In this document: piece by piece, positions 505-9,114 of the stretch | Layout of the letters: the number at the start of each line of letters is the position of its first letter | How positions within the stretch are numbered: position 1 is the stretch's first letter | Assembly (NCBI GenBank): GCA_016281125.1 | Contig: JAEEIA010000034.1 | Coordinates: forward strand, 1-64,000 | Origin: Oscillospiraceae bacterium | Lineage (GTDB): Bacteria; Bacillota; Clostridia; Oscillospirales; Ruminococcaceae | DNA: 64,000 bases | Direction: 5' to 3' | Notes under the pieces: model-generated | Database searches by the model: none | What the model was told of the DNA's origin: nothing | What the model saw: the letters and a program-made list of their open reading frames with translations, nothing else | Program-made: the position numbers and the translations under genes

Positions 505-894
505 ATGCAAACAGTCAAACGCGGAGAGATCTATTACGCCGATCTCAGCCCGGTCGTCGGGTCGGAGCAGGGCGGCATCCGTCCCGTTCTCATCATCCAG
601 AACGACGTCGGCAACCGGTTCAGCCCCACCGTCATCGCCGCCGCGATTACCAGCCGCCGCGACAAAGCCCGGCTCCCCACCCATATCCCGCTGGATGCCT
701 GCGGCTGCGGCCTCAGCAAGGACAGCATCATTTTGCTGGAGCAGATACGTACCATTGACAAGCAGCGACTGCGCGAATGCATGGGCGGCATCCCGCTCGA
801 CGTCATGAAGCAGGTGGACAATGCGCTGGAGATCAGCTTCGGGCTGATTCCCCGTCCGCGCCGCATCAGCAGACCCGCAGAGCTCCGTCAGTGA
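505..894 (+). CDS. mazF: MazF/PemK-family mRNA interferase (EndoA type)
   Basis: This 129-residue protein has the full MazF/EndoA fold pattern: an N-terminal '[20 protein letters not shown]' block, then 'RPVLIIQND' and '[10 protein letters not shown]', and a C-terminal '[12 protein letters not shown]'. Members are sequence-specific, ribosome-independent RNases that cut ACA- or UACAU-like sites. Arg26 and the Thr of 'AAIT' match the active-site region. The ATG at 505 is preferred over the ATG at 498 because the 'gaaagga' site then lies about 10 bases upstream. No antitoxin gene is visible: upstream sequence is repeats and downstream is an unrelated gene. In Bacilli and many Clostridia mazE lies directly upstream, so this toxin looks solitary or has a distant partner. 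Confidence 0.9.
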
Positions 895-914
895 GCCCGC
901 TGCGAAAATTTTAC

Positions 915-942
915 TTGACATTCCCCGAAAAAGTGGTATAAT
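915..942 (+). promoter_or_regulatory. Sigma-A promoter for the first cyclophilin-like gene
   Basis: TTGACA (915-920) and TATAAT (937-942) are both perfect consensus with a 16-base spacer, 70 bases before the start codon at 1013. Confidence 0.85.
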
Positions 943-1012
943 AGAAAAGTATCTGCATGACCGCAGATGCAGACTGTGCGCCGCTTTTGCGCATACTGTA
1001 AGGAATGATAAT

Positions 1013-1840
1013 ATGAGAGCTACCGGTCCGGCAGTGCGCCCGGAAAAGCGGAAGGTCGTCAGGGGACTGCTGATTGTCCTGACGATCACGATGCTGAGTT
1101 CGTTCGGGCTCGGGCTTTGGGCGAACCTGACGAGCGATTACAAGACCGTTCTGAACTATGAGGACATCGACCTGATCCAGCTGGAGGCGCCGCAGTCCGG
1201 CGCAAAGGCTGCGGTCATTCACACCTCGCTCGGTGATATGCAGTTCACGCTGTATCCCGAGGAGTGCCCGCAGACCGTCGGCAGCTTTATCGCGCTGGCG
1301 GAAAGCGGCTACTATGATAATACCTATGTGTTCGAGCTGGCACCGTCGGTTTTTTTTGCGGGCGGTGCTGTGACGCCGCAGGGTGATCTGCCCGCAGGCA
1401 AGGCGGGGACTGCGCAGGAGCATATCCCGCAGGAGCTTTCCGCAAAGCTGTGGCCGTTCCGCGGCGCGCTCTGCGCCATGCAGACCGCAAACGAGGGCGG
1501 CTTCTGGAAAACCCTGACGCAGACGCGCGATACCTTCACCGGCAGCCGGTTCCTGGTCTGCAACTCCATTGAGATGGACGAGGAGATTCAGGAGGGGCTC
1601 CGCAGTGTCGAGAATGACGCGATGAAGCGCGTCGGTGAGGCGTTCATCGAGCACGGCGGTATCCCGAATTACGCGCAGCAGCTGACGGTTTTCGGTCAGC
1701 TCACCGAGGGTTTCGACGTCCTCGACGCGATCACCGCGGCAGAGGTCGGCCCGGGCGAGGATGCCGGGGACGGCGTGACGATCACGCGGCCGAAGGACGA
1801 AATCCGCATTCTCTCCGTCGAGATCGTTACAGTGCCGTAA
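1013..1840 (+). CDS. Membrane-anchored cyclophilin-like protein, active site degenerate
   Basis: This 275-residue protein has a short cytoplasmic N-terminus, one membrane anchor (about 20-38) and an extracellular cyclophilin-like domain (about 65-270). The fold is recognisable from 'AVIHTSLGDMQFTLYPEECP' and 'VFGQLTEGFDVLDAI'. Cyclophilins catalyse cis-trans isomerisation of X-Pro bonds. Here the catalytic 'FHRVI..FMIQGGD' block, which carries the essential Arg, is replaced by 'YVFELAPSVFFAGGAV', so isomerase activity is doubtful and a chaperone or structural role is more likely (inference). The next gene is an intact secreted cyclophilin, so the pair probably arose by duplication. Start chosen at an ATG after 'taaggaatgata'. 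Confidence 0.75.
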   Translation: MRATGPAVRPEKRKVVRGLLIVLTITMLSSFGLGLWANLTSDYKTVLNYEDIDLIQLEAPQSGAKAAVIHTSLGDMQFTLYPEECPQTVGSFIALAESGYYDNTYVFELAPSVFFAGGAVTPQGDLPAGKAGTAQEHIPQELSAKLWPFRGALCAMQTANEGGFWKTLTQTRDTFTGSRFLVCNSIEMDEEIQEGLRSVENDAMKRVGEAFIEHGGIPNYAQQLTVFGQLTEGFDVLDAITAAEVGPGEDAGDGVTITRPKDEIRILSVEIVTVP

Positions 1841-1981
1841 CCTGCGGCCATAATAATTTGTTTTGTGCATTATTTCGGTTTCATCGGCCGGAAATGCACG
1901 CGTTTTCTGTGTTATGACATAAATCAAATTGATTTTCTTATTTTTTTCTTGGAAAAAGATGACAGAATTGTAAATTTTCAC

Positions 1982-2010
1982 TTTACAAATAGCAAAAAAC
2001 GTGCTATAAT
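1982..2010 (+). promoter_or_regulatory. Sigma-A promoter for the cyclophilin lipoprotein
   Basis: TTTACA (1982-1987), a 17-base spacer, and perfect TATAAT (2005-2010). It lies 68 bases before the ATG at 2078 and separates this gene's expression from its paralogue upstream. Confidence 0.85.
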
Positions 2011-2077
2011 ATACTTAATATGTACGGGAACTGTGCGATTACGCATTTCGCCCGTGCAGAACAGGGAGTTTTTGGTA

Positions 2078-2917
2078 ATGCGAGCAACAAGACTTCTCTC
2101 AAGAACAGCCGCGGCCGTTTTGTGCAGTGCAGCAGCGATTCTCACGATGACCGGCTGCGAGCAGAAAAAGGTCGTGCTGGAATCCGGTGCGGATCAGCAG
2201 ACAGCCGCAAACGCCGCGCTGCTCGGTGCGGACGGCTGTGTGAATTATACGATGCCCGAAAAGGGCGAGGAGATCGTCGTCATGACGATCGAGGGCTACG
2301 GCGATGTGAAAATCCGCCTCTTCCCGGAGGAATCCCCGAAGGGCGTCGAGAACTTCACAACGCTGGTCAAAAACGGCTTTTACGATGAACTGATTTTTCA
2401 CCGCGTCATCGACGGGTTCATGATTCAGGGCGGCGATCCCAAGGGCAACGGCACCGGCGGTGTGGATGCCTGGGGCAGCGAAACCGGCTTTGCACAGACA
2501 TTTTCTCCGCGGCTCAATCATGTGTGTGGCGCGGTTTCCTATGCAGTCGGCAATGACAAAATGAACAAATCGCAGTTCTTTATCGTCACCGGCGAGCAGA
2601 TTCAGCCGGAAATGTTCAGCCAGTACACTGCGCTGTACGGCATCACCTTTACGCCTGCGCTCCAGACGCTCTATGAAACCGTCGGCGGTGCGCCGCATCT
2701 CGACGGCGTTCACGAGATCTTCGGGCAGGTTTTTGACGGTATGGAATACGTACTCGACATTCAGAAAGTACCGACAGACAAGAACCATAAACCGAAGTCT
2801 GCGGTACGGATCGAAAAAGCGGTCGTCACGGAGTATGACGGCGCAGCACCGCATTGGCTCAATGCGGTCGGCGAGGAGATCGGTTCGGATCCCGCCGGAA
2901 TCAACGATGAAGGATGA
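2078..2917 (+). CDS. Peptidyl-prolyl cis-trans isomerase, cyclophilin-type lipoprotein
   Basis: This 279-residue protein starts with a lipoprotein signal peptide ending in the lipobox 'LTMTGC', so it should be lipid-anchored outside the membrane. The cyclophilin domain (about 60-275) keeps the catalytic motif 'FHRVIDGFMIQGGDP' and the 'NKSQFFIV' block, so it should be an active prolyl isomerase helping exported proteins fold. A longer open frame reaches back to 1865, but the ATG at 2078 is chosen because it starts the signal peptide and lies just after a consensus promoter. It ends about 110 bases before murA. Confidence 0.9.
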   Translation: MRATRLLSRTAAAVLCSAAAILTMTGCEQKKVVLESGADQQTAANAALLGADGCVNYTMPEKGEEIVVMTIEGYGDVKIRLFPEESPKGVENFTTLVKNGFYDELIFHRVIDGFMIQGGDPKGNGTGGVDAWGSETGFAQTFSPRLNHVCGAVSYAVGNDKMNKSQFFIVTGEQIQPEMFSQYTALYGITFTPALQTLYETVGGAPHLDGVHEIFGQVFDGMEYVLDIQKVPTDKNHKPKSAVRIEKAVVTEYDGAAPHWLNAVGEEIGSDPAGINDEG

Positions 2918-3026
2918 TGGAGTCATTTTGGAAACGGAAAAGATTGCAGTGTCCGAAACAAATAAAAAAAACGGGGCACTGCGTGGATCTATAAAATTGC
3001 AATGTGAGGAACAAGGAGAACATGCC

Positions 3027-4337
3027 GTGAACACACCGAACAAATTTGTTATCAAAGGCGGACGGCAGCTGCGCGGCGAGGTCGAGATCAGCGGTGCAAA
3101 GAACGCAGTGGTGGCGATTCTGCCTGCAACCATTCTGGCAGACGAGCCATGCATCGTGGAAAATGTACCGGAGATCAGCGATGTGGAGATCTGCTTTGAT
3201 ATTCTGCGGGAGCTCGGCGCGACCGTCAGATATCTGGCGCCCCACACCTACGAGATCGACACCCGCGCGATCAAGAGTTACAGCGTCCCCTATGAAAAAG
3301 CTAGAAAAATGCGTGCGTCCTATTATTTCATGGGCGCGCTGCTCGGAAAATTCGGATACTGCCGTGTTTCCATGCCCGGCGGATGTCCCCTCGGCGACCG
3401 TCCGATTGACCAGCACCTCAAGGCGTTCACAAAGCTGGGCGCCGTGTGCAAGGTTGACCGCGGCATGGTCGATATTACGACGCAGGACGGCCTGAAGGGC
3501 AACCAGATCTTCTTTGACTGCGTGACTGTCGGCGCCACGATGAACGCGATCCTGGCCGCTGTCAAGGCGGACGGCCTGACGATCATCGAGAATGCCGCGA
3601 AAGAGCCGCATATTGTCGATCTGGCAAGTTTCCTGAACTCCATGGGCGCCGAAATCATGGGCGCCGGTACCGATACCATCAAGATCCGCGGCGTGAAATA
3701 TCTCCGCGGTACGAGCTATGCCGTCATTCCGGATCAGATTGAGGCCGGTACTTATATGGTCGCGGCTGCTGCGACCGGCGGCAATGTGCTTGTCAAGAAC
3801 GTCATTCCGAAGCATCTGGAATCCATCATCAGCGTGATGGAGAAGATCGGCGTCAAGATCGAGCAGTTTGACGATGCCGTGCGCGTTTCCGTGGACGGCC
3901 CGCTCGTCAAGACCAGCATCAAGACGCGCCCGCATCCGGGCTTCCCGACTGACATGCAGCCCCAGATCTCTGCACTGCTCTGCCTTGCGGAGGGCACCAG
4001 CATGATCAAGGAGGGCGTTTCCGAGCAGCGGTTCCAGTATGTCGATGAGCTGCGCAGAATGGGCGCGGATATTCAGGTGGACGGCAAGGTCGCCGTCATT
4101 GAGGGCACCGGCCGGCTGACCGGCGCACCGGTCAAGGCCTGTGATCTTCGTGCAGGTGCGGCGCTGATGATCGCCGGACTCGCGGCACAGGGCGTCACGA
4201 CGATCGAGGACATCTTCCACATCGAGCGCGGCTATGCCGATATGGAGGGCAAGCTCCGTGCGCTCGGCGCGGAAATCGAAAAGCGCGCGATTACCCAGAG
4301 TGAGAATATTCCGCAGCCCGATCAGGAAGCGGGATAA
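3027..4337 (+). CDS. murA: UDP-N-acetylglucosamine 1-carboxyvinyltransferase
   Basis: MurA transfers enolpyruvate from PEP to UDP-GlcNAc, the first committed step of peptidoglycan synthesis, in the cytoplasm. The protein is 436 residues, usual for the family. The N-terminal 'GGRQLRGEVEISGAKNA' and the loop 'PGGCPLGDRPIDQHL' are diagnostic; Cys120 in that loop is the residue that reacts with PEP and fosfomycin. The GTG at 3027 is preferred because 'aaggag' ends 8 bases before it. The ATG at 3022 runs into an immediate stop, and the in-frame ATG at 2907 would add a 40-residue tail foreign to the family. A long hairpin follows the gene. Confidence 0.95.
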   Translation: MNTPNKFVIKGGRQLRGEVEISGAKNAVVAILPATILADEPCIVENVPEISDVEICFDILRELGATVRYLAPHTYEIDTRAIKSYSVPYEKARKMRASYYFMGALLGKFGYCRVSMPGGCPLGDRPIDQHLKAFTKLGAVCKVDRGMVDITTQDGLKGNQIFFDCVTVGATMNAILAAVKADGLTIIENAAKEPHIVDLASFLNSMGAEIMGAGTDTIKIRGVKYLRGTSYAVIPDQIEAGTYMVAAAATGGNVLVKNVIPKHLESIISVMEKIGVKIEQFDDAVRVSVDGPLVKTSIKTRPHPGFPTDMQPQISALLCLAEGTSMIKEGVSEQRFQYVDELRRMGADIQVDGKVAVIEGTGRLTGAPVKACDLRAGAALMIAGLAAQGVTTIEDIFHIERGYADMEGKLRALGAEIEKRAITQSENIPQPDQEAG

Positions 4338-4499: not shown

Positions 4500-5033
4500 A
4501 TGAACCGAGAAATCTTTGACCGGCTTTATGATTCCGGCGTGCTGGATTCCGCGCGCGCGGAGTACCTCTGGCTGCCGGAGATGAACTTTTTTCCGCCTGT
4601 GGCCGGCGGCGGAGAATACTGCGGACTGACCGCTTTTGCCATGACCGGAAAGAACGATCTGTTCTGCTGGGATGACGATGACCGTGTGTATCTTGCACCG
4701 CCGGATCATACCGAGCCGGTGCTCTACGCGGCGAATTTCCGGGATGCGATTTACCGCAGGCTGCTGGAATTTGCGTCCGATGCGTTCGGGACATTCTGCT
4801 CTGACGAAGAAAAAGCGGCGATGCCGCACGAGGCGGCGGAAGCGGTGATTTCGCATTCGGAGGCGCTTGCAATGCTGAAGGAATATGAAGGCGGCTTTGA
4901 AGCGCTTCTGCTGCCGGAACAGCTCGACGTGCTGCGGACGCTGCGGCGCGGCGGGTTTGACAAGTCGGGCGTGCTGCTGACGGAATCTGCCTGCGGCGCG
5001 CTGATCGGTGTGCTGCTGGATGCAGCGGGTTGA
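4500..5033 (+). CDS. Uncharacterised acidic cytoplasmic protein
   Basis: I do not recognise this 177-residue protein with certainty. It has no signal peptide or membrane segment. The pattern 'GLTAFAMTGKNDLFCWDDDD...PVLYAANFRDAIYRRLLEFA' loosely recalls SMI1/KNR4 (SUKH)-like proteins, which include immunity proteins, but this is a weak impression. It is flanked by hairpins on both sides, so it is probably monocistronic. The start follows 'aagggttgag', a modest ribosome binding site. Confidence 0.7.
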   Translation: MNREIFDRLYDSGVLDSARAEYLWLPEMNFFPPVAGGGEYCGLTAFAMTGKNDLFCWDDDDRVYLAPPDHTEPVLYAANFRDAIYRRLLEFASDAFGTFCSDEEKAAMPHEAAEAVISHSEALAMLKEYEGGFEALLLPEQLDVLRTLRRGGFDKSGVLLTESACGALIGVLLDAAG

Positions 5034-5064
5034 ATAACGGATCATGATATGATGACTGATACGG

Positions 5065-5098
5065 AGCACCGGTTTGACGGCCGGTGCTTTCCATTTTC
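5065..5098 (+). terminator. Rho-independent terminator
   Basis: Stem 'agcaccgg' (5065-5072) pairs with 'ccggtgct' (5081-5088) and is followed by a T-rich stretch, 30 bases after the stop codon of the upstream gene. Confidence 0.65.
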
Positions 5099-5203
5099 TG
5101 TCTTTGCAGAAATAGCGCTGCTTGTTCATGAGAGGATGCCGAAAGATTTTGACGCATCCTCTCATGATCCTTTTGTCCGATGTTTATTTTGGCTGGGCGC
5201 GGG

Positions 5204-5324
5204 GCGCGAATCCTGAGAGGAAACCACAAGAGAGGGGAGAGAAGCGCCGCCAGCGGCTTATTCTCTCCCCTCCCTTAAAGTTTCCTCTCAGACTCTCTTT
5301 CCTTATTCTACCCCTCTCTTGCTC
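5204..5324 (+). repeat. Left inverted repeat with internal palindrome
   Basis: A 121-bp element. Its reverse complement recurs at 8053-8173 with about seven mismatches and no gaps. The core 5213-5291 is itself a palindrome: 'ctgagaggaaac' and 'gtttcctctcag' form a 12-bp outer stem, continuing through 'gaggggagagaa' and 'ttctctcccctc'. The element would fold as a long hairpin in either DNA or RNA. It resembles a MITE or REP-like element. Confidence 0.9.
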
Positions 5325-5398
5325 CGAGCCGGGCACTGCCCGCACCGCTGTGCAGTTTTTTGCACATATGGATGTTAAAACAAAATCATTTCTCGGAA

Positions 5399-5427
5399 AG
5401 TTGTACGCAAACGTGCAACTTTTTTTG
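5399..5427 (+). terminator. Strong terminator upstream of the tail-like cassette
   Basis: Stem 'agttgtacg' (5399-5407) pairs with 'cgtgcaact' (5412-5420, one G-T pair) around loop 'caaa', followed by eight T residues. It sits between the left repeat and the first cassette gene, 100 bases before its start. It either ends read-through from the left or acts as an attenuator. Confidence 0.75.
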
Positions 5428-5525
5428 TTTTCTGCACCCCTTTCAGGGAGCGTGTGTCATCCGCACCGGCGATGCGGCTTGCCGCGGAGGGGGCAGCCGG
5501 TGCAGCAATCCGAAAGGAGGCTTTT

Positions 5526-5999
5526 ATGGAACTGACAGTCACCGTGCGGAACCGCCGCGCATCCGCAGACCTGCCCGCGCTTGTCTGCGGCAACGGCGAC
5601 TATTCGGCACATTTTGATCTTGACGGCGAATGGGATGCTTTTCCGCGCAGAATCGCGCAGTTTGTATTCTCTCAGAACGGGCGGGAGATCCGCAGAGAGG
5701 TTTACTTCACCGGCGACCGCTGCACAGTGCCGGTGCTCAGCGGGACAGATCTTGTTTCGGTCGGGCTGTATGCGGGCAGCATCCGGACAACTGTCCCCGC
5801 AAGGATTCCGTGCATCGCATCCATTACGGATCTGTGCGGAACATCGTATGACGGGCAGCCCGACGTCTATCACAGCATGATGCAGCAGCTCGCGGAAATT
5901 GAGGGCGGCTATACGGACTGCTTTCTGCTGCTCGCAGACCGTGACGGCGATTTTGTCGCCGCGGCGGACGGCAGCTGTATTTTATGCAGGGAGGTTTGA
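5526..5999 (+). CDS. Phage baseplate/tail-like protein, BppU-type N-domain
   Basis: This 157-residue protein is the first of four tightly packed genes. The blocks 'VRNRRASADLPALVCGNGDY', 'FDLDGEWDAFP' and 'VSVGLYAGSIRTTVPARIPC' fit the beta-rich N-terminal domain of phage baseplate upper/receptor-binding proteins of Clostridia phages, judged by pattern only. It is a paralogue of the gene at 6779. No signal peptide or membrane segment is seen. The ATG at 5526 follows a perfect 'aaaggagg'. It ends one base before the next start. No capsid, portal or tail-tube gene lies nearby, so this is not a complete prophage. Confidence 0.7.
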   Translation: MELTVTVRNRRASADLPALVCGNGDYSAHFDLDGEWDAFPRRIAQFVFSQNGREIRREVYFTGDRCTVPVLSGTDLVSVGLYAGSIRTTVPARIPCIASITDLCGTSYDGQPDVYHSMMQQLAEIEGGYTDCFLLLADRDGDFVAAADGSCILCREV

Positions 6000-6000
6000 T

Positions 6001-6786
6001 ATGGACGGGAAATTCTATACGCCCTATTCCAGGGAGGAGATTCTGACCGCGTTCCGGCGTGCGCTCGGGGATCTGACCGACACGCAGGTCTTTGCGCTGG
6101 TCGCGGATGAGGCAGCGCAGCGTGCGGAGGAGGACGATGTGCTCTCCAATGCGATTGCCGCGATCAATGCGGATCTTGCCGCAAATTATGTGCGCAGTAC
6201 CGCGCTGGACGCCGAAACGGACGCACGCACCGCCGCGGATCAGCAGCAGTGCGCCGCGCTGACCGGGCTGATCGACAGCGGCGCGAAAAATGTGCTGGAT
6301 CTGACAAATGCGCAGTCCGTGACCGTGAACGGCGTCACCTTTACCGTCAACAGTGACTGCTCCGTCACCTGCACCGGGCAGGCGACCGCAACGGCGTTTT
6401 TCAGCACGGCGGTCACGGTTCCGGCCGGGCAGTTTGTCTTTTCCGGTATGCCCGAGGACGGCAGCGCTGCGACCTACCGGCAGGAGCTCCGCGTCACGCC
6501 GACCGGCAACGTCTTTACGACGAATGAATCTGCGGCGGGCAGTGCCCTGACGGTTGCAAATGCGTGGTCGGGCTATTTCAATATCCGTGTTGCGGCGGGG
6601 TACGACTTCGGGAGCGGCAAAACGCTGCACCCGATGATCTGCACCGCGGCGGCGATGAACATTTCCGGCGAATATGTGCCGTACCGGCCGTCGTGGGATG
6701 AAATGTGGGCGGCCATTCAGGCGTTGCAGCAAACGGTCGGCGGTTCGCTGCGGGCTGCGCCGGAAACGGAGGCGAACCATGCCTGA
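6001..6786 (+). CDS. Phage tail-fibre-like protein
   Basis: This 261-residue protein starts with a helical region ('QVFALVADEAAQRAEEDDVLSNAIAAINADL', split here only for description) that looks like a coiled coil (about 30-95). A beta-rich C-terminal domain (about 98-240) follows, with 'NVLDLTNAQSVTVNGVTF' and 'HPMICTAAAMNISGEYVPY'. Repeated 'VTVNGVTFTV..DCSVTCTGQA' patterns and an 'F.PMI....Y.PY.PS' ending are typical of phage tail appendage proteins that contact the host surface. It starts two bases after the previous stop with 'gggaggt' upstream, and overlaps the next gene by 8 bases, so it is co-translated. Confidence 0.65.
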   Translation: MDGKFYTPYSREEILTAFRRALGDLTDTQVFALVADEAAQRAEEDDVLSNAIAAINADLAANYVRSTALDAETDARTAADQQQCAALTGLIDSGAKNVLDLTNAQSVTVNGVTFTVNSDCSVTCTGQATATAFFSTAVTVPAGQFVFSGMPEDGSAATYRQELRVTPTGNVFTTNESAAGSALTVANAWSGYFNIRVAAGYDFGSGKTLHPMICTAAAMNISGEYVPYRPSWDEMWAAIQALQQTVGGSLRAAPETEANHA

Positions 6787-7285
6787 GATTCGTCTGATTG
6801 TCAGAAACAAGCGGATTTATGCGGTAGATCAGCCTGTGATCGTATGCGGAAACAGCGATTTTACGCTGTATTTCGATCCGGATGCGGAATGGGCGCCGTT
6901 CCGCGAAAAGACAGCGCGGTTCTTCTGGTACGATAACCGCCGCAGAACGTATCTGCATACCGATGTGCTGTTTGCGGGCAATGCCGTGACCGTGCCGGTG
7001 CTCCGCGATACGAATGAGGTCGCGGTCGGGCTGTATGCCGGGGCGCTTCATGCGACGGCGCCGATCCGGATTCCCTGTGCGGAGGCGGTCACAGACGGCT
7101 CGGATATTCCGGAAGTGCTGCCGCCGCCGCTTTATACGCAGCTGCTCTCGTATCTGCGGGAGCTGGCAGAGGAAACAGCCGTCAGGCAGGCGGAGCGCGT
7201 GCAGCACGGCATCACGGTGCGTGTGCCGGTGAACGGCACGCTTGCGCCGATTGAGGAAACAGGAGGTCAATATGTCAATCCGTAA
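6779..7285 (+). CDS. Phage baseplate/tail-like protein, paralogue of the gene at 5526
   Basis: This 168-residue protein is clearly related to the product of 5526-5999. Both have the pattern V-R-N-[KR]-R, 'P..VCGN.D', 'FD.D.EW..F', 'VLFAGN..TVPVL', 'VAVGLYAGALH.T.P.RIPC'. It adds a helical C-terminal tail ('YLRELAEETAVRQAERVQ') and an extended end. It overlaps the previous gene by 8 bases and the next by 14, a strongly coupled operon. The role is inferred as a virion appendage or adhesin building block; the true partner is unknown. Confidence 0.7.
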   Translation: MPEIRLIVRNKRIYAVDQPVIVCGNSDFTLYFDPDAEWAPFREKTARFFWYDNRRRTYLHTDVLFAGNAVTVPVLRDTNEVAVGLYAGALHATAPIRIPCAEAVTDGSDIPEVLPPPLYTQLLSYLRELAEETAVRQAERVQHGITVRVPVNGTLAPIEETGGQYVNP

Positions 7286-7925
7286 AGTAATCACCGGAAA
7301 CCGTGCGGCGGAAATCGCGCTGCTGCTGGAGGAAAGCGGGCTGTTCCATGCCGTCGAGCTGAACGCGGCGGGCAACACCGTCAGCTGCCGCGGCGCGGAC
7401 GGAAAGCTGCGGTTTGTCCTGAAAACCAGTGCCTACGAGGGTTCGGCGCTGGCGGACTGCACGTTTTACGTCAGCGAGAACAGCAGCTTCCGGAACAATC
7501 TTTCCACGGCGACGCAGCACGCGCTTGCAGTGAACTGTGTGTATCTGTGCAGCAGCGGCGTGATTCTGGACTGCGAAAAGGGCGCGGTTCTGCTGACGAA
7601 AAATAATCTCGGAGAGCTGCTGTACGTCGTCAGCGACTGGTCGGCCGCGGCGAAGGCGGAGGCGCTTTGCAGCCTGCGGGTGTATTCCTTTGGCGATTAT
7701 GTCCGGAGCAGCTATCCGGTCAATCTGCAAACGGCGTATAATCAGCGGGACGGCGCGGTCGTGTTTGTGCCGTTTGTATCTGCGCCTGCGGATGATGCGC
7801 AGCCGGTTTATGCGGCGCATGCGTATTTCACGCCGGTGTATCAGTATGCCGAAAGCGGCAGGCTCAGTGCTGAGGAACGGCAGTATCTTGCCTATGCGGG
7901 ATGCTGGGCGATGGAAGATATCTAA
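7272..7925 (+). CDS. Uncharacterised last gene of the tail-like cassette
   Basis: This 217-residue protein is not recognised. It is beta-rich and hydrophilic, with no signal peptide or membrane helix. 'TATQHALAVNCVYLCSSGVIL' and 'VYSFGDYVRSSYPVNLQ' suggest a compact globular domain. The ATG at 7272 is preceded by 'aggaggt', and the start lies inside the 3' end of the previous gene. Its place at the end of the cassette fits a phage-derived structural or receptor-recognition protein (inference). The right-hand repeat cluster begins immediately after the stop codon. Confidence 0.6.
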   Translation: MSIRKVITGNRAAEIALLLEESGLFHAVELNAAGNTVSCRGADGKLRFVLKTSAYEGSALADCTFYVSENSSFRNNLSTATQHALAVNCVYLCSSGVILDCEKGAVLLTKNNLGELLYVVSDWSAAAKAEALCSLRVYSFGDYVRSSYPVNLQTAYNQRDGAVVFVPFVSAPADDAQPVYAAHAYFTPVYQYAESGRLSAEERQYLAYAGCWAMEDI

Positions 7926-7926
7926 A

Positions 7927-8345
7927 GCGGGCAGCGCCCGCTGGCAATTCCTTCCGGAGGCATTTTACCAAGCGCGCCCATTTTTCACAAGTACACGCCG
8001 CTGTTCGCGGCTTCTGAAAGGACAATTCTCCCAAGTATTCTGCTGAAGCGCAGAGCAAGAGAGGGGAGGAATAAGGAAAGAGAGTCTGAGAGGAAACCTT
8101 AAGGGAGGGGAGAGAATAAGCCGCTTGCGGCACATCTCTCCCCTCTTTTGTGGTTTCCTCTCAGGATTCGCGCCGCGGGCAGCGCCTGCTGGCAATTCCC
8201 TCCGGAGGAATTTTACCGAGCGCGCCCAATTTTATCATGTACACGCCGCTGTTCGCGGCTTCTGTAAAGCTGCTTCTCCCCGGCACTCTGCTGAAACGCA
8301 GAGAAAGAGAGTAGAGGAATAAGGAAAGACAGCAGACTGGGCGCA
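7927..8345 (+). repeat. Two direct copies of a roughly 165-bp repeat
   Basis: Copy A starts at 7927 and copy B at 8175. Both open with 'gcgggcagcgcc', then 'gctggcaattcc', 'ccggagg.attttacc', 'gtacacgccgctgttcgc', 'ctgctgaa.cgcagag' and 'aggaataaggaaag'. The right inverted repeat overlaps the end of copy A and sits between the copies. No gene is present. Two shorter 'ccggaggaatacgccagcggg' units follow at about 8413-8470. Confidence 0.85.
8053..8173 (-). repeat. Right inverted repeat with internal palindrome
   Basis: Reverse complement of the 121-bp element at 5204-5324, about 94 percent identical by eye. The palindromic core is 8086-8164, the same 79-base length as the left copy. The two copies face each other across 2.7 kb that contains exactly the four tail-like genes. 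Confidence 0.9.
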
Positions 8346-8478
8346 GTCACGCCAAAGAAGCCGCGTTCAGCGGCGTGTCTGGCAAAAGCTGGGAGTGCAT
8401 CGGTCAATTCACCCGGAGGAATACGCCAGCGGGGGCTCCCCGCCCGGAGGAATACGCCAGCGGGCGCTGCCCGCCGCA
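8346..8478. repeat. Short hairpin repeats, no gene
   Basis: Contains two near-identical units around 'cggaggaatacgccagcggg', each followed by a GC-rich hairpin of the 'gcgggcgctgcccgc' type found at many other intergenic places in this window. No coding frame is supported. Confidence 0.6.
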
Positions 8479-8507
8479 TTGACTTTTTTGCGGATTTGTG
8501 GTATGAT
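8479..8507 (+). promoter_or_regulatory. Sigma-A promoter
   Basis: TTGACT (8479-8484), 17-base spacer, TATGAT (8502-8507), preceding the membrane protein gene at 8572. Confidence 0.8.
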
Positions 8508-8571
8508 ATATCATAGGCTTTTTGTAAGCGGCAGGTCTGCCGTTTTCATTCTTACGATCGGAGAGTGCATC

Positions 8572-9114
8572 ATGGCCGGTACCCAAAAAAACAGCGACCG
8601 CGTCGCCCTCGGCGGCATTGTTGCGGCGCTCTGCATCGTGATCATGTTCCTGACAGGCGTGGTGCCGGCGCTCTATATCGTTTCTCCTATGGCCGCCGGA
8701 CTGCTCATGGTCATCCTCGTGGAGGAGGTTTCCGTCAGCTGGGCGTGGCTCACCTATCTCGCGGTCAGCCTGCTCTCTCTGATTGTAACCTTTGACAAGG
8801 ACGCCGCGCTGATGTTCATTCTCTTTTTCGGCTATTATCCGATCCTGCGCCTCAGCGTTGAAAAGATCAGAGTCAGGCTGCTGAAACTGCTCTGCAAATA
8901 CCTGATGTTCAACGTGTTCCTCGTGATCGACTGGTTCCTGACCGTGTATCTGCTCGGACTGCCGACCTTTGAGGATACCGGCCCGGTGATGTACGCCGTG
9001 CTGATCGCCGCGTTCAATATTATCTTTTACTTTTACGACCGCATCCTCTCCAGAATGGACTGGATCTATCATCAGGTGTTTGTGAAGAAGGTGCTCGGAA
9101 GGCACGGAAGGTGA
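8572..9114 (+). CDS. Multi-spanning membrane protein of unknown function
   Basis: This 180-residue protein has about five hydrophobic helices (roughly 12-32, 36-50, 55-75, 80-95, 110-135 and 140-160). The N-terminal 'RVALGGIVAALCIVIMF' pattern is reminiscent of ECF-transporter S components and DUF2232-like proteins, which would give a substrate-binding or energy-coupling role, but I cannot assign a family. The ATG at 8572 follows 'cggagag'. It is first in a run of small membrane proteins, with only 9 bases to the next gene, and a consensus promoter lies upstream. Confidence 0.7.
   Translation: MAGTQKNSDRVALGGIVAALCIVIMFLTGVVPALYIVSPMAAGLLMVILVEEVSVSWAWLTYLAVSLLSLIVTFDKDAALMFILFFGYYPILRLSVEKIRVRLLKLLCKYLMFNVFLVIDWFLTVYLLGLPTFEDTGPVMYAVLIAAFNIIFYFYDRILSRMDWIYHQVFVKKVLGRHGR

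Follow-up and report, generated by a model that had tools for sequence, protein, structure and literature searches.

A palindromic leader shared by a baseplate-like operon and a phage head operon points to a putative gene transfer agent-like particle in a Ruminococcus-type genus

Four consecutive genes (T1-T4) in a 64,000-nucleotide stretch of an Oscillospiraceae genome, here called the window, probably constitute the distal operon of a domesticated, vertically inherited particle that resembles a gene transfer agent (GTA) and is encoded by two operons. The same 67-nt palindromic leader opens both the T1-T4 operon and a phage head operon located on a second contig, C61. These bacteria of gut and rumen appear to have kept a phage-derived particle and to inherit it as their own.

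GTA-like packaging has been reported to be common among gut Ruminococcaceae; one of them, Ruminococcus callidus, packages 4.6-kb fragments, and random host DNA in particles has been published for both R. callidus and Faecalibacterium (PMC12946183). The Faecalibacterium element, FpGTA, comprises a head operon encoding TerS, TerL, portal and capsid and, elsewhere and apart from it, an operon for baseplate, RBP, holin and endolysin; its particles are described as being without visible tails (Borodovich et al., 2026; PMC12946183). The parts of that report on which we draw name GTA genes for Faecalibacterium only (PMC12946183).

Two operons under a common leader

All four genes of the distal operon lie on the forward strand and are free of internal stop codons. 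T1 (5526-5999) and its paralogue T3 (6779-7285) encode upper-baseplate (BppU)-like proteins, T2 (6001-6786) is tail-tip- or fibre-like as judged from its position and a weak PHROG match of unknown function (phrog_35108, 3.4e-5), and T4 (7272-7925), the last gene of the operon, is 45-56% identical in four congeners. The initial annotation called the genes phage appendage-like, and this was right. A search with the T1/T3 alignment detected relatives in 23 viral contigs; no relatives were found for T2 in phages or for T4 in viral contigs. The best PDB match of the predicted T3 model was 4v96, a phage genome-injection device, at a weak TM of 0.33-0.38 (Foldseek, T1/T3); we take this entry to be the TP901-1 structure and its T1/T3-like part to be BppU. 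Pfam and NCBIfam searches of T1-T4 and a PDB sequence search with the T1/T3 profile returned nothing convincing, and PADLOC found no system in T1-T4 plus the neighbouring gene g177. A T1/T3-type gene occurs in 27 of 30 genomes of the genus, prophage copies counted.

Upstream of the operon are the host genes '505' (MazF/PemK-like through its G004 homologue), two cyclophilins and murA (505-4337, forward strand), then g177 (4500-5033, forward strand) and a terminator-like hairpin (5063-5090). Downstream lies a host membrane-protein gene used as a marker (8572-9114, forward strand), which is away from the operon in the congeners fetched. Comparison of distal loci covered 23 without a prophage signature, 22 besides the one in the window, with L318 and L332 set aside as prophages. 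In nine species the distal operon has a CNNM gene close by. Such a gene was found at 9 of the 22 other loci, with the relative orientation shared by eight of the nine; at the other 13, no CNNM gene was found in the stretch fetched, some of these stretches ending early.

The window contig (C50) and C61 overlap at their starts by 61 identical bases. This overlap, which lies inside repeat-like sequence, and synteny place the head operon probably just beyond window position 1, so that the two operons of the source genome (G000) would probably be only about 6 kb apart; in G003 they are about 218 kb apart by leader coordinates. Head and baseplate genes thus occupy separate operons, as in FpGTA. The gene order on C61 is terS, terL, portal, major capsid, p301, p120, p143, p128 and the baseplate hub p312, and it includes the phage-derived capsid, portal and terminase genes expected of a GTA: the terminase matches Terminase_2 (9e-13) and Terminase_6N (5e-13), the portal phrog_30703 (3.6e-113), and the capsid Phage_capsid_4 (6.5e-8) and phrog_3922 (4e-59). 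The p312 model (pLDDT 92) matches hubs of the phage Mu gp44 type (E 1e-15 to 1e-14, TM about 0.65-0.70), and a PDB sequence search with the p312 profile gave nothing convincing. Its alignment (A5) has 12 rows and leaves out L258, L310 and L312, which have a stop in the aligned stretch, and L313. Neither a tape-measure gene nor a sheath or long tail gene was seen in the head operon of the source genome.

The full nine-gene order is kept at 8 of the 12 head loci of the genus; two of the remainder are without detectable p143 or p143 and p128, and two stretches stop at the capsid gene. At the loci checked, host genes surround the head operon. It has '505', cyclophilin or murA beside it at seven of these 12 loci, the '505' end being a frequent neighbour, and murA or cyclophilin is near it at 1 of 18 loci in other genera (G081). 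None of ten flanking proteins picked from two head loci belonged to a phage family, and two further loci were inspected by eye; in this sample from four loci no genes for phage replication or integration were seen, as would be expected of a GTA.

The leader (5374-5440, forward strand) contains an 11-bp palindrome at about 5396-5423 that may represent a terminator-like hairpin or an operator. At E<=0.01, 18 of the 30 genomes of the genus contain a match to it, and the source genome has 11 sites, one before T1 and one before terS. By table reading, it is present on the coding strand just upstream of terS at 10 of the 12 genus head loci (E at most 0.006) and upstream of the first T gene at 17 of the 23 non-prophage distal loci (E<=0.1), leaving two and six loci, respectively, with no match. 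Outside the set used to build the model, matches occur at seven of nine head loci (one palindrome-only) and 11 of 17 distal loci (two palindrome-only). None of the five prophage loci that carry T homologues has the leader, and the tail-protease/tape-measure pair typical of prophages is upstream of no leader-bearing locus. Covariation in the leader hairpin did not rise above that of its shuffles. Rfam returned 14 matches in the stretch 4900-8700, all below gathering scores, of which 13 are microRNAs that resemble the hairpin, and nothing reached the gathering score at seven loci.

Inheritance of the head operon and exchange of the distal operon

By sequence matches, the capsid gene is present almost throughout the genus, essentially as a single copy: it was found in 28 of 30 genomes, one with a fragment only and one with an extra fragment, and no internal stops occur among the matches listed. 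Capsid and T1/T3-type genes are both present in 26 of the 30. Capsid distances follow host-marker distances with r=0.87 in the 26 genomes from which both genes were extracted, and none of 9,999 permutations gave as high a value. Homologues of the capsid gene occur in 67 of 148 genomes of the family; the sole head genes detected in G121 and G140, two reduced genomes, were p301 and capsid, with neither terminase nor portal.

The dN/dS ratios of terL, portal and capsid are 0.04-0.22 in valid pairs from five genomes, similar to those of host genes, which indicates purifying selection on the structural genes in the pairs tested (the set leaves out the MCP-G020 rows, whose sequence was wrongly extracted, and the truncated murA-G025 row). 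The ratios of T1-T4 are also below 1. Between G020 and G024, dS is 0.52-0.71 for T1-T4 and 0.07-0.15 for terL, portal and host genes. In Mantel comparisons of T3 across 17 genomes (G002 and G021 are in the tree only), the distal operon correlated with capsid at r=0.41 and with the host marker at 0.32. These values indicate that the distal operon follows the capsid loosely only; vertical inheritance, which holds for the head operon, applies to the distal one in part.

The T3 tree indicates that distal genes are exchanged with phages, phage sequences being intermixed outside the clade formed by G000, G003, G020, G024 and G025. In prophage G000:C20, homologues of T2/T3 and a holin follow a gene of tape-measure size, and an integrase-like gene is present (the long gene and the integrase recognised by eye); G003:C17 carries homologues of T1-T3, G003:C13 carries homologues of T1-T4, a holin and a lysin, and G023:C8 and G019:C30 have a T1 homologue each. 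At the family level some relatives sit in larger elements, with a sheath-like gene in G120 (by eye).

Dispersed palindromic repeats around the distal operon

The operon is bracketed by a 121-nt repeat present at 5204-5324 (forward) and, inverted, at 8053-8173 (reverse strand). About seven mismatches between the elements had been claimed, and the two copies are indeed 94% identical over 121 nt. The 79-nt palindrome proposed as the core of each is present in both, at 5213-5291 (31-nt arms, 5213-5243/5261-5291) and at 8086-8164 (30-nt arms, 8086-8115/8135-8164), with arms 87% complementary in each case. The inverted repeat as a whole extends to arms of 133 nt (5197-5329/8048-8180) that are 92% complementary. 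Across 15 copies in the genus, 15 of 28 palindrome pairs are changed on both sides and 91.4% of cells pair. As a repeat, the element goes beyond chance. The elements enclose exactly four genes, as annotated, and in addition the conserved leader. The right side is more elaborate than annotated: 85% identical mosaic modules flank the element there on either side (7927-8084 and 8175-8332). Further copies of the former are found at other loci of this genome and of congeners, and modules related to the latter lie upstream of the 8572 gene in both G020 and G024.

The initial annotation proposed a mobilisable or invertible cassette or, alternatively, two MITE copies bracketing the operon by accident, and suggested a search for further copies and for empty sites. 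The geometry allows a cassette in principle, since long arms of such complementarity could recombine. The element was found at 12 places in the source genome; within the genus, 16 of 30 genomes have it, counting the source, as do none of the 31 outside the genus (61 searched altogether). When 7-15 copies were placed uniformly, 3-15% of simulations had at least one pair no more than 2,970 bp apart; bracketing by two copies is not very improbable. T1-T4 occur in the same order in congeners G020, G024, G025 and G003, and BLAST found no element around them in 15-20 kb of each. The gene g177 precedes T1 in the same orientation both in the window and in the three of these four congeners that have it (G020, G024 and G025); since g177 lies outside the left repeat, the unit that moved in this lineage exceeds the bracketed interval. 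Alignment shows an empty left site in the same three congeners, and comparison between species revealed neither empty and filled sites nor both orientations bounded by the repeats. No site-specific recombinase was matched among T1-T4, and the distal operon of G018, which is opposite in orientation to CNNM, belongs to a genome with no match to the element. Recombination between the repeats is therefore a highly improbable account of the operon, and the accidental bracketing fits. On the best reading, the repeats are mosaic palindromes of a dispersed kind; they came to flank T1-T4 by insertion in this lineage, and the operon is not driven by them. Palindromic repeats of the REPIN, BIME and MITE types are dispersed, with covarying arms and mosaic modules, and the present element resembles them in each of these respects; it differs in its length of 121 nt and its confinement to one genus among the genomes searched.

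A candidate GTA-like particle and its alternatives

In the proposed particle, the C61 operon would make the head, connector and hub, and the T1-T4 operon the distal part, namely the baseplate and receptor contact. The leader may act as an operator or as an antitermination switch and in this way co-regulate the two operons. Host DNA would be packed by the terminase into a small capsid, T1 and T3 would form a baseplate on the hub, the tail being minimal or absent, and T2 and T4 would touch recipient cells, so that the particle would work like a GTA, moving DNA between cells.

The arrangement is like that of FpGTA in its related gut Clostridia host and its split head and baseplate operons. The proposed particle differs in its shared palindromic leader, BppU-like pairs and Mu gp44-like hub. 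As for lysis genes, a CHAP lysin is present in 9 of the 22 other non-prophage distal loci (G025, G028, G002, G001, G016, G018, G027, G009 and G015), whereas G020 and G024 gave no more than weak partial matches and the source genome none. GTAs of the RcGTA type are phage structural genes vertically inherited at more than one locus under purifying selection. The present gene set shares these properties in a different host phylum, with its two operons under one leader and a source head operon lacking a tape-measure gene. PBSX of Bacillus subtilis, a defective phage-like element that packages host DNA, is one contiguous prophage, whereas the particle proposed here, phage-derived too, is encoded by two dispersed operons. 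Baseplate modules of TP901-1-type siphophages share the structural match of T1/T3 and have T-type counterparts in prophages of the genus; T1-T4 are detached from tape measure and tail protease and stand under the particle's own leader.

T homologues in same-genus prophages could mean that T1-T4 are what is left of an ordinary, now decaying siphophage prophage and have no connection with the head operon. This is improbable, given four stop-free genes with dN/dS below 1, the recurrent CNNM neighbourhood, and a leader common to the head operon that is missing, as noted, from the prophage loci, whose tail-protease/tape-measure pair no leader-bearing locus has upstream. A somewhat stronger contender, still unlikely, is that the same two-operon domesticated particle is a tailocin- or PBSX-like killer, or otherwise no DNA-delivery device. 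PBSX packs host DNA without injecting it, and the FpGTA authors keep this option open in their Discussion (PMC12946183). Fast-evolving, swapped distal genes would fit diversification of target range as well as of recipient range. However, constraint is stronger on terminase, portal and capsid than on the distal genes, a pattern more in keeping with DNA packaging than with killing alone, and no tape-measure, sheath or long tail gene was seen in the source head operon. We therefore favor the GTA-like reading. Much more tentatively, a GTA lineage might run through much of the family, with an inherited capsid operon and a swappable baseplate operon, a single palindromic switch for both, placed ahead of a multicopy structured RNA as well and so forming one regulon, and an almost tailless particle of capsid, connector, Mu-type hub and BppU-type baseplate.

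The analysis names a candidate GTA-like gene set for a Ruminococcus-type genus, in which one short DNA motif ties together the two halves and a conserved packaging core is set apart from an exchangeable adsorption operon. Because the genes are named, the capsid is near-universal and inherited, and a motif links the operons, the regulation, packaging and recipient range of the putative particle become directly testable.

Repeats bracketing the distal operon

The phage-appendage-like genes T1-T4 (5526-7925, plus strand), a distal operon of four co-oriented open reading frames, are enclosed by inverted copies of a 121-nt element (5204-5324 and 8053-8173), as the initial annotation had it. The arms are 133 nt long and 92% complementary, and each copy is itself palindromic, with a 79-nt palindrome. 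In 15 copies from the genus, 91.4% of cells pair, compared with 83.4% when shuffled and 43-62% when slid, and both sides have changed in 15 of 28 pairs; the palindrome is maintained. A search for further copies in the organism's own genome (3.9 Mb, 98 contigs) located 12 places, seven of which have a complete or almost complete element; eight additional matches are these copies read on the opposite strand. The element is carried by 16 of the 30 genus genomes (own included) and is absent from all 31 non-genus genomes searched. Its copies are fused to other repeated modules in varying combinations, which we take to resemble bacterial interspersed mosaic elements.

The initial annotation considered a mobilisable or invertible cassette or fortuitous bracketing and proposed looking for empty sites. 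Alignment of the gap between g177 (4500-5033), outside the left repeat, and T1 revealed such a site in the congeners G020, G024, and G025, as opposed to extra DNA in the window; these genomes carry the element at other sites, and it was not found in their fetched T1-T4 loci. With 7-15 randomly placed copies, some pair lies <3 kb apart in 3-15% of simulations, so the bracket requires no special cause. In the same three genomes and G003, T1-T4 keep their order and follow a CNNM-type transporter gene; the intervening gene is g177 in three of the four and a different one in G003. T genes also adjoin CNNM in the more distant species G028, G002, G001, G007, and G018, and CNNM was not found in the fetched stretch at 13 of 22 other non-prophage distal loci. 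The organism's own CNNM gene is elsewhere (contig C76), and g177 and T1-T4 together lie between murA (within 505-4337) and a host gene at 8572-9114, which are not adjacent in the congeners fetched; the moved block is thus larger than the bracketed interval. At the G018 distal locus (L324, G018:C46), the operon is complete to the lysin and convergent with CNNM, the sole locus of nine so oriented; G018 has no match to the 121-nt element.

A palindromic leader shared with a head operon

Contig C61 carries terS, terL, portal, capsid, p301 (phrog_16951), p120, p143, p128, and p312 within about 7 kb. The predicted structure of p312 (pLDDT 92) matches phage Mu gp44-type baseplate hubs, and the interval from p128 to p312 contains no gene of tape-measure size. 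A palindromic leader before T1 (5374-5440) matches sites upstream of terS in other species, and 18 of 30 genus genomes gave hits with a covariance model built from 11 sites. Eleven sites occur in the own genome: one before T1, one before terS on C61, a weaker one on C28 (L201:1763-1825) preceding an AAA/primase-like gene, and eight in a noncoding element. The leader is directly 5' of terS in 10 of 12 fetched genus head loci, and six of 18 other-genus loci show a weak hit ahead of terS/terL (G081, E 0.0012; G066, G032, G093, G165, and G190, E 0.02-0.43). It precedes the T genes at 17 of 23 loci lacking a prophage signature, i.e., tail-protease-sized and tape-measure-sized genes just upstream, and at none of five loci with one. 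Because the leader hairpin is terminator-like, both an operator and an attenuator are possible. A G028 copy (L204, G028:C6:12804-12870) precedes an HTH-type gene, a candidate regulator, near a pheT-like gene (both identified by eye).

The multicopy noncoding element, structured and ~210 nt long, starts with the leader and terminates in CTTGACAATTGAATA, which we liken to boxA. Own copies lie at L194:1641-1860, L196:1545-1765, L198:1211-1430, L199:1336-1555, and L104:6642-6861 (plus strand) and at L197:350-567 and L107:8999-9218 (minus strand); in congener copies (L240, L243-L246, L248, L249, and L251) the part of the leader present at the start is mainly the palindrome. Both sides have changed in 12 of 36 predicted pairs, and Rfam gave no match at gathering in those of the own copies' loci that were searched. 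The element possibly belongs to the same regulon as the leader-bearing operons.

Read on the opposite strand, the window's first bases overlap the start of C61 by 61 identical bases, and the host gene '505' adjoins the head operon in G020, G024, G025, G003, G004, and G014; on these grounds the two own leaders are probably about 6 kb apart. In G003 the distance is about 218 kb. The flanking proteins tested at the G004 and G169 head loci belong to glutamine synthetase, MutY-like glycosylase, phosphoribosyltransferase, cyclophilin, PemK/MazF, RNase P, YidC-type, MnmE, and ProRS families, besides one weak membrane match. A human-faecal sequence labelled 'Bacteriophage sp.' (MT835508.1, L259) has a head operon of this kind (terS-terL-portal-p301-capsid) beside ABC-transporter genes, and may represent bacterial chromosomal DNA retrieved from particles or an erroneous classification.

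Vertical inheritance of the core and probable exchange of receptor-side genes

The capsid gene occurs in 28 of 30 genus genomes (misses, G002 and G026), as a fragment only in G011 and with one extra fragment in G009. Across 26 genomes, its distances correlate with those of the host 8572 gene (r=0.87; 0 of 9,999 permutations as high), with means of 0.25 and 0.34, respectively, and dN/dS of terL, portal, and capsid is 0.04-0.22 in valid pairs. Capsid homologues occur in 67 of 148 family genomes and 58 of 123 genera, singly in all but three of the 67; some of these genomes measure 0.7-1.2 Mb. The case for the whole family is weaker than that for the genus, since some homologues lie in longer elements (by eye, a sheath-like gene is present in G120) and only p301 and capsid were detected in G121 and G140, terminase and portal not being found.

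T1/T3-type genes, paralogous and BppU-like, occur in 27 of 30 genus genomes (misses, G010, G013, and G026), mostly in at least two copies, some of them prophage-borne. Their fold combines a beta-rich domain with a helix and, among PDB entries, resembles most closely, though weakly, a phage genome-injection device (4v96; E 1e-3, TM 0.33-0.38). Between G020 and G024, dS is 0.52-0.71 for T1-T4 as opposed to 0.07-0.15 for terL, portal, and host genes. The T3 sequences from the five closest species group in one clade; genus-wide, T3 intermixes with phage sequences and correlates with capsid at r=0.41 (1 of 9,999 permutations as high). Prophages carry genes similar to those of the distal operon, and prophage-like loci with tape-measure-sized and T1-T3-type genes (L316, own C20; L329, G003:C17; L330, G003:C13; L318, G023:C8; L332, G019:C30) are likely donors of distal alleles. 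Exchange with prophages, affecting receptor-side genes and sparing the packaging core, is the simplest account.

Likeness to gene transfer agents

The main doubts about reading the two operons as a gene transfer agent (GTA) are that the own genome has no match to the CHAP lysin of nine other distal loci, that a tailocin-like function is possible, and that the distal operon is loosely linked. According to Borodovich et al. (2026; PMC12946183), GTA-like packaging occurs in Ruminococcaceae, with R. callidus packaging 4.6-kb fragments, and FpGTA is defined by two operons, one for the head and another, about 125 kb away, for baseplate and lysis. As there described, FpGTA parallels the anatomy of T1-T4 and the head operon. 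The two-operon particle, a candidate member of the GTAs, would thus work like one.
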